Assembly (NCBI GenBank): GCA_021838985.1
Contig: JAKCCC010000025.1
Coordinates: forward strand, 1-11,439
Source of the DNA: Planctomycetota bacterium
Lineage (GTDB): Bacteria > Planctomycetota > Phycisphaerae > WQYP01
DNA length: 11,439 nucleotides
Reading direction: 5' to 3'
Shown: piece after piece, positions 9,841 through 11,439 of the stretch
Numbering within the stretch: position 1 is the stretch's first letter
Layout: each line of letters opens with the position of its first letter
Notes under the pieces: model-generated
Databases searched by the model: none
Told to the model about the DNA's origin: nothing
What the model saw: only the letters and a program-made list of their open reading frames with translations
Made by a program: the position numbers and the translations under genes

Positions 9841-9990
9841 GCGGTTTTCCGTATTTAGCCGCGCCGGCACCAGCGGGGCGAAAAACAACTCCACCCCCTT
9901 CAGATTTTTATCCGACTCACTGTTCCTTGGCAAGCCACCGCTGGACCAGTCAACGCGAGCCTTTCACCGCATATGGAGCGTTTCCCATAA

Positions 9991-10019
9991 ATTATGTAGC
10001 TTATCCGCAATTTTGGAAA
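9991..10019 (-). promoter_or_regulatory. Possible sigma-70 promoter for the FabZ-ACP-deacetylase operon
   Basis: On the minus strand TTTCCA (10019-10014) and CATAAT (9996-9991) are separated by exactly 17 bases, in the most AT-rich part of the region and about 170 bases before the first start codon. The -10 box matches five of six consensus bases and the -35 box four of six. No operator was recognised. Confidence 0.35.
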
Positions 10020-10110
10020 TAGTGTGCCGTCAAGTGATAACTTTCTGGCTGCCGTACCCCCCCCGGATCCACCACCGAACCCGCAGCACCGGGCTTCAGC
10101 TCACCGTAAT

Positions 10111-10122
10111 TCCATGAAAGGC
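10111..10122 (+). repeat. Left subterminal inverted repeat of the IS element
   Basis: TCCATGAAAGGC is the exact reverse complement of the right repeat at 11413-11424. It overlaps the first bases of the leader hairpin. Confidence 0.85.
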
Positions 10123-10174
10123 TGTCTCCCTGCGGACGGTAAGATGTCCGCATGGGCTTACAAAGGAGACAGCC
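10120..10174 (+). promoter_or_regulatory. Leader hairpin covering the transposase ribosome binding site
   Basis: GGCTGTCTCC at 10120-10129 pairs perfectly with GGAGACAGCC at 10165-10174, directly before the ATG at 10175. An inner stem, TGCGGAC (10131-10137) with GTCCGCA (10146-10152), sits inside the loop. The ribosome binding site AAAGGAG (10162-10168) is largely within the right arm of the outer stem. Transcripts entering from outside would fold and hide it. Confidence 0.75.
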
Positions 10175-11053
10175 ATGAGTAAGGTATGGACAAAGGTATC
10201 CCATTGCGGGATGGATGTCCACCGGACGTTCAGCCGGTTGACGGCGCGGGACGAGGAGAACCAGGTGGTGTTTCGCGCACGGTTGGAGCATCGCGATTGG
10301 GAGCGTTGTCGGCAACAGCTGGGGCAGTCGCCTGCGGCGACCCGGTGATTCTGGAGGGTACCTTCGGGTGGGCGTGGATGGCGCAGGAATTGCAGGCGTG
10401 CGGATTGGAACCGCACTTGTGCAATGGGCGGAAGGTCGACCGGTGGCGGGAGGCGAAGGGGTTGGCGAAGACGAATCGGATTGACGCGAACTTGATCCGC
10501 GAGTTGTGGGCGGAATCGACGCGGTGGTGGGAGGTGTGGCTGGCCCCGCTCGCCCCCGGCGAGGCGAGCGGAGATCGGGGACCTGGGGCGTTTTGCCAGC
10601 CGCAAGAAGCTGGCGGCGTATGCCTGGTTGGCCCCGCGGGCCCAGGACCGTGGGGAGGAGACGGGGGCGACGCCGGTGGGGCGGCATGTGGGGCACCAGG
10701 GGTGCCGGACGCTGAAGTGGGCGTTCCTGGAGGCGGCGCACGGGGCGGTGCGGAAGAGTGCGGGGATGGCGGCGGTGTTCGACCGGCGGACGGATGGGGG
10801 TCGGCGGGACAAGAATCGGGGCTACCTCGCGGTGGCCCGGCATTTATGCGAGATAGGTTACGCGTGTCAACGTAAAGGAGTCGACTACATGGAACAGCGA
10901 CCGTTGCGGCCGGGCGAACGTGCGTCCGGGCCGGCGACGGCCTGCTGCGAGGTGCGTCCGGAGTCGGGCCAGCCTGAACTCGCTATGGTCCGGCCGTCGC
11001 GGCGGCCGCGTGTGCGCGGTCGGCGTGAGGGTCCGAGACCTGTCTGTAAATAG
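10175..11053 (+). pseudogene. IS110-family transposase, frameshifted and internally deleted
   Basis: The N-terminal RuvC-like part starts at ATG 10175 (frame 2) with GMDVHRTFS, giving the first Asp (10214-10216), and runs to a stop at 10346. Homology continues in frame 1 from about 10330 with VILEGTFGW (Glu at 10354-10356), GLEPHLCNGRKVDRW and KTNRIDAN. In that motif the usual KTDxxDA has Asn (10474-10476) in place of the third catalytic acid. At about 10563-10570 the match jumps to AEIGDLGRFASRKKLAAYAWLAP, back in frame 2. Some 130 residues that normally link the two domains, as I recall the family, are missing. The C-terminal Transposase_20 part ends near GVDYMEQRP, followed by an arginine- and proline-rich tail to the stop at 11053. 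Around the expected catalytic serine I see QDRGEETG and no serine. With a frameshift, a deletion and lost active-site residues, the gene is not functional. Confidence 0.88.
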
Positions 11054-11061
11054 CGCCACCC

Positions 11062-11346
11062 GCACCGGACCGTAATCATGTGGCCGCCCCCGGAACCGCG
11101 GGGGCCAGCACGAATAGGATAGCTGGGCCGCACCCCTCGTGTGAGCCCTGGGCCGGTGCCTTCCGGAGAGCCTGGAGAGGAGCGAGAGCCTGCGGCCGGT
11201 GAGGCCGCGGAGCGGGTGCGTGTGGAGATTGGCGCCGGGCCGCCAAACCGTGCGACGGGGGACCCTGCGCCTCCCGTCGGCGCGAAGGCCACGGGCCTGC
11301 CACGGCGTACAGGTCGCCGCCCCCGCGAAGCCTCTGGCTCCGTGGC
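11062..11346 (+). ncRNA. Candidate bridge RNA / seekRNA region of the IS element
   Basis: In IS1111-type elements the guide RNA is described downstream of the transposase gene, as here. Outer stem one is GCACCGG (11062-11068) with CCGGTGC (11153-11159). It encloses ACCGTAAT (11069-11076, identical to the left terminus 10103-10110), a hairpin (11086-11091 with 11100-11105) and GGATAGC (11117-11123, identical to the right terminus 11422-11428). Stem two is GCCACGG (11299-11305) with CCGTGGC (11340-11346). Its 34-base loop contains CAGGTCG (11310-11316), identical to the first seven bases after the inferred right end. Other perfect stems are 11192-11197 with 11203-11208, and 11253-11259 with 11273-11279. 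Limits and fold are by eye. High GC content makes short stems common, and expression is unknown. Confidence 0.4.
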
Positions 11347-11399
11347 GAGGGCCGATCAGATAGACCGCGCGGAGGATTTTGTGTTGTCGGAACCAGGGC

Positions 11400-11405
11400 T
11401 TGACA
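11400..11405 (+). promoter_or_regulatory. Consensus -35 box pointing out of the IS right end
   Basis: TTGACA lies seven bases inside the right inverted repeat. Seventeen bases further, GATAGC (11423-11428) is a poor -10 match. Such an element could form a promoter with adjacent host DNA or at a circular junction of the two ends. Confidence 0.4.
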
Positions 11406-11412
11406 GCGGAGC

Positions 11413-11424
11413 GCCTTTCATGGA
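11413..11424 (+). repeat. Right subterminal inverted repeat of the IS element
   Basis: GCCTTTCATGGA is the exact reverse complement of the left repeat at 10111-10122. Only 15 bases remain after it in the window. Confidence 0.85.
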
Positions 11425-11439
11425 TAGCAGGTCGAAGAT

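Follow-up and report, generated by a model that had tools for sequence, protein, structure and literature searches.

A putative IS1111-type bridge RNA with a candidate dual-coding target guide in a decayed IS110-family element from Planctomycetota

IS1111 elements such as ISEc11, ISPa11 and ISKpn4 use a seekRNA that comes from the non-coding region downstream of the transposase gene and carries the complement of the top strand first, and their transposases typically, but not exclusively, have 330–350 residues (text of PMC11187229). The text of PMC11208160 predicts a bridge RNA at the right end for 93.0% of IS1111 elements, many of which have their donor bases in a multi-loop; a structure search in that work took in 50 bases of coding sequence. 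The RNA described below resembles the IS621 bridge RNA, as presented in the same text, in its target and donor loops, its left and right guides on opposite strands and its core. It differs in that the guides run right before left in both loops, whereas the IS621 RNA lies upstream of its gene and has left before right.

We analysed a stretch of 11,439 nucleotides (the window), which is contig C486 of a 2.9 Mb Planctomycetota genome of 70% completeness. It contains a decayed IS1111-like element (Table 1), and positions 11062–11159 are very probably the donor-binding domain of an IS1111-type bridge RNA (seekRNA) that is encoded at and beyond the 3′ end of its IS110-family transposase gene. At the level of sequence this reading draws on a conserved structure, complementarity that covaries for three of the four guides, the empty targets of one relative and an overlap with the reading frame. 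As in the IS1111 elements of PMC11187229 (text), subterminal inverted repeats are followed by about 7 + 3 further bases, the RNA region lies downstream of the gene, the top-strand complement precedes the bottom-strand match, and a circle-junction promoter can be predicted. The repeat is perfect over 12 bp (10111–10122 and 11413–11424), and the core shared with relatives, CATGAAAGGC/GCCTTTCATG, leaves outer extensions of exactly 7 and 3 bases, within the IS1111 pattern of 11–13 bp repeats with 7 + 3 bases outside. The C-terminal transposase piece of the window (10565–11050) matches PF02371 above the cut-off, while its N-terminal frame matches PF01548 below it (E 0.078). PF01548, PF02371 and NF033542 are all above the cut-off in intact relatives (two proteins tested), as expected of the IS110 family. 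The control element IS5075 (plasmid record NZ_CP042900.1) likewise has an 11-bp subterminal repeat.

Table 1. Features of the element and its predicted RNA in the window (position 1 is the first base of the stretch).
Feature	Position	Strand	Basis or remarks
Decayed IS1111-like element (IS110 family)	10106–11425	+	12-bp repeat, transposase pieces, ends compared with relatives
Left end	10106–10122	+	Core slot GT (10106–10107), AATTC, then CATGAAAGGC; slot placed from a relative's empty sites
Transposase gene remains	10175–11053	+	Frame changes and an in-frame stop; middle partly missing; frame of the C-terminal piece ends at 11053
Predicted target-binding loop	10965–11062	+	Closing helix 10965–10976 with 11051–11062, apical stem between; folds of relatives, covariation
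Putative right target guide, AACTCGCT + AT	10977–10986	+	Within transposase codons
Putative left target guide, CTGTA	11043–11047	+	Two left-flank bases, core slot, one more base
Predicted donor-binding domain	11062–11159	+	Three-way junction closed by 11062–11068 with 11153–11159
Putative right donor guide, GTAAT	11072–11076	+	Complement of left-end ATTCC; four of five bases fit in the window
Putative left donor guide, GGATAG	11117–11122	+	Same sense as right-end GGAT plus the first two flank bases
TTGACA, −35 box of expected circle-junction promoter	11400–11405	+	17 bases before GATAAT
Right end, GCCTTTCATGGAT	11413–11425	+	Comparison with relatives

A protein search returned 1164 homologues at E values up to 1e-30. 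Of 397 genomes of the class, 16 gave matches, the source genome included, and six loci were found in named genomes, two of them in the sister genome. A draw from the phylum gave matches in 5 of 392 genomes, again including the source genome, and one new close relative, and a profile search of the class matched 35 of 397 genomes at E values up to 1e-25, many of the matches being distant. No relatives were found among viral contigs, a DNA search of plasmids gave no match, and Rfam had no match over 9900–11439 at E values up to 1. Comparisons were made with the 14 close relatives whose 3′ part could be recovered: E1 (L054), E2 (L055, on JAFGKA010000194.1), E3 (L056), E4 (L080), E5 (L078), E6 (L079), E7 (L077), E8 (L071), E9 (L088), E10 (L068), E11 (L081), E12 (L101), which was itself found with the RNA model, E13 (L102) and E14 (L103). 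L064, L070, L073 and L074 were excluded as N-terminal fragments or contig-end pieces. The number of elements varies between tests: the right end is absent from E3, a paired left end from E10 to E12, and the target loop from E13. The elements are few and related, and all permutation tests below ignore this relatedness.

The initial annotation had described a closing stem, GCACCGG with CCGGTGC, around copies of both termini, ACCGTAAT (11069–11076; source 10103–10110) and GGATAGC (11117–11123; source 11422–11428), and all of these were found exactly where it placed them. In the minimum-energy fold the closing stem also encloses the hairpin described between the copies, which is formed by GCCCCCG and CGGGGGC. 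All 14 close relatives carry such a domain in the same position, just past the gene. A covariance model (R1) built from ten relatives, with the window left out, recovers window positions 11051–11169 (E 7.1e-7). Across the class it matched 12 of 397 genomes, and the window is the sole match in its own genome (E 1.8e-4); on 22 loci of distant or fragmentary relatives the best E value was 0.54. In an alignment of 15 sequences (A5), which was fitted to R1 and so leans towards the model, 84.5% of cells pair and 14 of the 22 modelled pairs change on both sides; neither figure was reached in any of 500 shuffles, and sliding the partners abolishes the signal. The closing stem corresponds to helix 2 of R1, with 98.1% of cells paired and changes on both sides in four of its seven pairs. 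Taken singly, folds gain no stability over shuffles: z is −0.46 for the fold of this region in the window taken as a whole, and ranges from 0.15 to −1.03 for the donor domain in eight sequences, which is the usual outcome in GC-rich DNA but lends the structure no support. Helix 1 of R1 shares bases with the 3′ strand of the closing helix of the target loop, and the two cannot form together.

Both terminal copies had been proposed as guides, and they fared differently. Every four-base stretch of the aligned RNA was set against each stretch of the left end, read in either orientation. Of the 3000 comparisons, the best was the loop after the closing stem as the complement of left-end bases 4–7, with 79% of bases matched, a score reached by 8 of 4000 permutations (family-wise p 0.002, relatedness ignored). 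Base 6 of the left end fits in all 12 elements, with C facing G in ten of them, G/C in E8 and T/A in the window, while base 7 fits in only 6 of the 12. The whole pentamer fits 50 of 60 left-end bases (permutation p 0.00016, in a register chosen by eye). Five positions of the supposed left copy covary as the complement of the left end. The same-sense ACCGTAAT copy itself is confined to the window (1 of 12 elements): the longest run was 3–5 bases in all 11 relatives with a known left end, vs 8 in the window. The source of this copy had been given at the correct positions, but it extends beyond the element edge: its first three bases, ACC (10103–10105), belong to the flank; a second copy of the element, on contig C183, has another flank before GTAATTC. 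Since the same-sense copy is limited to the window and three of its bases match flanking DNA, it is a coincidence. Over both strands of the window ACCGTAAT is found twice, where 0.11 copies are expected, and none of 200 shuffles had two.

The copy of the right terminus is kept by the relatives. GGAT matches the right end in direct orientation with 98% identity over 14 elements, and E8 and E14 change together at this otherwise near-invariant motif. Its covariation was not significant family-wise (2673 of 4000) and it was not the top scorer by z. As GGAT hardly varies, the right-end guide is based on identity and not on covariation. The full GGATAGC is found three times in the window against 1.01 expected, and since 14 of 200 shuffles had three or more, the match is weak when taken alone. 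The initial annotation had made its proposal depend on both copies and covarying stems being found in relatives: the left copy is absent, whereas the right copy is kept and the stems covary. Its objection that both copies are in the top-strand sense disappears with the left guide read as a complement, as one guide then reads each strand. A donor loop with a guide on each side of a hairpin, as in IS110-family bridge RNAs, is supported by conservation, covariation and its placement 3′ of the transposase.

The annotation had recognized this donor loop and missed a second loop upstream of it, together with the overlap of that loop with the gene. When the 85 bases upstream of the donor domain were compared with the right flank, the complement gave a z of 6.7, which none of 4000 permutations reached family-wise. 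The putative right guide consists of the eight bases before a conserved TGG, in the last codons of the gene. All eight bases fit in E7 and E14, seven in E2, E5, E6, E8, E9 and E12, six in E1, E10 and E11, and five in E4 and the window. The total over 13 elements is 86 of 104, and the highest of 200,000 permutations was 76; real pairs and shuffled pairs could both take either of two registers, and relatedness was ignored. For the outer six bases, with E5 and the window omitted, 54 of 66 fit, a value reached in none of 200,000 permutations. The left target guide, first noticed by eye, fits at 87% in 11 elements. With left flank and left end scanned together, it was matched family-wise by 1 of 4000 permutations for four-base and 18 of 4000 for five-base stretches; a scan of the left flank alone gave nothing (1182 of 4000).

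In folds of five relatives the two target guides face one another across an internal loop below the apical stem. With 14 sequences aligned by MAFFT, 85.7% of the target-loop cells are paired and both sides change in 12 of the 22 pairs, figures reached in none of 500 shuffles; for the number of pair types, 23 of 500 shuffles did as well. The minimum-energy fold of the window itself differs, with the closing helix partly broken, and its guides fit its own flanks only in part. Target guides were also sought elsewhere. In the spacer between the donor domain and the right end, six definitions applied to 11 elements gave nothing significant (smallest values 270 and 373 of 5000), and a spacer stem-loop was therefore dropped as the target loop; within the donor domain the best matches accounted for fewer than half of the bases. 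E4, E9, E10 and E13 have in common a spacer motif resembling GGCGCTCGGGTCGCA...GCCCTATCC, of which a degraded likeness is seen in the window at about 11290–11360.

One relative also provides target sites. E7, in genome G333, is flanked by CTCTGTA and AGCCGGGG, and a pattern search of this genome gave 12 matches, one being the E7 site itself. Two are empty repeats, L140 with CTCTGTA-GT-AGCCGGGG and L150 with CTGTA-AT-AGGCGGGG, and there are therefore two bases between the flanks at empty sites. At the left junction this core slot is GT in eight, AT in two, CT in one and CC in one of 12 elements, and at the right junction it is AT in 13 and AA in one of 14, so that most elements have GT on the left and AT on the right. 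REP-like hairpins were considered as a general feature of the right flank and rejected: five of 15 flanks were equalled by no more than 12 of 500 shuffles, and the other ten were unremarkable or weaker. A REP-type target is reported for one IS1111 member, ISPa11, in the text of PMC11187229, and we count this as a likeness.

The donor domain and the left target guide lie at or beyond the end of the gene, in keeping with the downstream guide RNA of IS1111 elements. Unlike in the layout described for them (text of PMC11187229), the right target guide is part of the open transposase frame in 9 of 13 relatives (E1 to E7, E11 and E14). In E8, E9 and E10 a stop precedes the right guide and the RNA is still kept, and E12 is a remnant. 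In IS5075, by comparison, a downstream AAAACGGAA complements the right flank TTCCGTTTT (read by eye) as the guide does here, and it starts 97 bases past the stop codon, outside the codons. Intact transposases of the present group have 386–429 residues in the open frame, longer than the 330–350 typical of IS1111 (text of PMC11187229); some of the extra length is due to a tail that follows the catalytic parts. In text passages of PMC11187229 and PMC11208160 we found no statement of a target guide inside transposase codons. As the search in PMC11208160 included some coding bases, the overlap may have been seen earlier without comment.

Among identical degenerate codons in seven genes, third positions agree in 93 of 99 comparisons (94%) in the RPGxGQP codons against 1098 of 2483 (44%) in the body, a level reached by none of 240 body windows. 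The tail motif was found in 101 of 120 proteins among the matches listed, out of the 1164 homologues; it was found by pattern, so its fixed letters are there by construction. In a 14-row alignment the tail residues P, G, G, Q, P and V are invariant. Just after the tail, the guide-holding positions 1 to 3 have 1.25, 2.83 and 1.72 bits, and the values at positions 5 and 8 are 0.08 and 1.84. From its codons, the protein tail thus looks shaped by the RNA, and the part of the RNA that would choose the landing site appears to be written in the last codons of the transposase in most relatives. We regard the element as carrying a putative IS1111-type bridge RNA with a dual-coding target guide. A further step, which we propose tentatively and at somewhat less than even confidence, is that RPGxGQP is mainly the translation of the closing helix, that retargeting would rewrite the C-terminus, and that the loop would act as a built-in switch from messenger to guide. 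Translation and folding as a guide would be mutually exclusive, because the ribosome must run through the loop.

From this arrangement we infer transcription, binding, circle formation and recombination along the following lines. The RNA would consist of two successive domains, the target-binding loop first, with its right guide (10977–10986) in the last codons and its left guide at 11043–11047. In an active element, joining of the two ends in the circular form would create a promoter from which gene and RNA are transcribed together, and the RNA-loaded protein would recombine the circle into a matching site. When the ends are joined through one AT, TTGAC lies exactly 17 bases before the −10 box; TTGAC is found in 11 and GATAAT in 12 of 14 junctions, with the left end assumed in three.

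The copy in the window is a relic and unlikely to act by itself. The middle of its gene is absent, and the same junction is found in the C183 copy (L039), where the internal loss (window 10560–10600) is identical and the left flank is different. This common loss points to movement of a defective copy that was helped in trans. Relative E1 (L054 1264–2163), with an open frame of 300 codons, also lacks part of the transposase middle. Positions 11093–11309, most of the donor domain, are missing from L040 (contig C537) and L042 (contig C187 of the sister genome), which represent two species, and the break lies at a GC-rich repeat of about 10–16 bases. These copies were considered as the normal form and rejected, as comparison with the relatives shows them to be deletions. 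A 28-base stretch in L052 (contig C173, 1579–1606) matches the left end of the element at 96% and is perhaps another remnant. A perfect 10-bp inverted repeat (10120–10129 with 10165–10174) overlaps the subterminal repeat and reaches the transposase start codon. Eight to ten of its ten bases pair in 12 elements, including the window, the C183 copy and G075, and E3 has a compensatory change. Because it ends at the start codon, this repeat could hide the ribosome site.

Other accounts of the region have to be weighed against a bridge RNA. A conserved RNA that regulates the transposase message, through stability, termination or translation and with no relation to target choice, would fit a domain that sits at the 3′ end of the gene and is strongly structured in relatives. 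It would leave unexplained why the right guide tracks flanking target DNA, outside the element (0 of 200,000), and why the left-end guide covaries with the end, and we consider it quite improbable. The initial annotation had also offered a footprint left by a nested copy of this element after its near-complete deletion. Deletions are indeed known in this region, in the C537 and C187 copies, but the domain holds its position in each of the 14 close relatives and shows compensatory changes, which already contradicts such a footprint, to which we give next to no credence.

Chance matches in GC-rich DNA are a further alternative. GGATAGC is not rare in the window, the same-sense left copy is found there only, and for that copy alone chance is the best account. 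The domain is nevertheless far above chance, because relatives carry it with covariation; together with the independent model match this contradicts an accidental origin of the domain as a whole, which is extremely unlikely.

As a putative bridge RNA, the locus belongs to a set of Planctomycetota systems with readable guides, one of them with known empty target sites, which are candidate recombination tools. A search for guides confined to non-coding sequence would overlook half of the target guide in this case. It also becomes possible to ask by direct experiment if translation of the message and its use as a guide can coincide. A single stretch of DNA would be both protein code and the guide of a programmable recombinase, and a change of target would be tied to a change of the protein tail.
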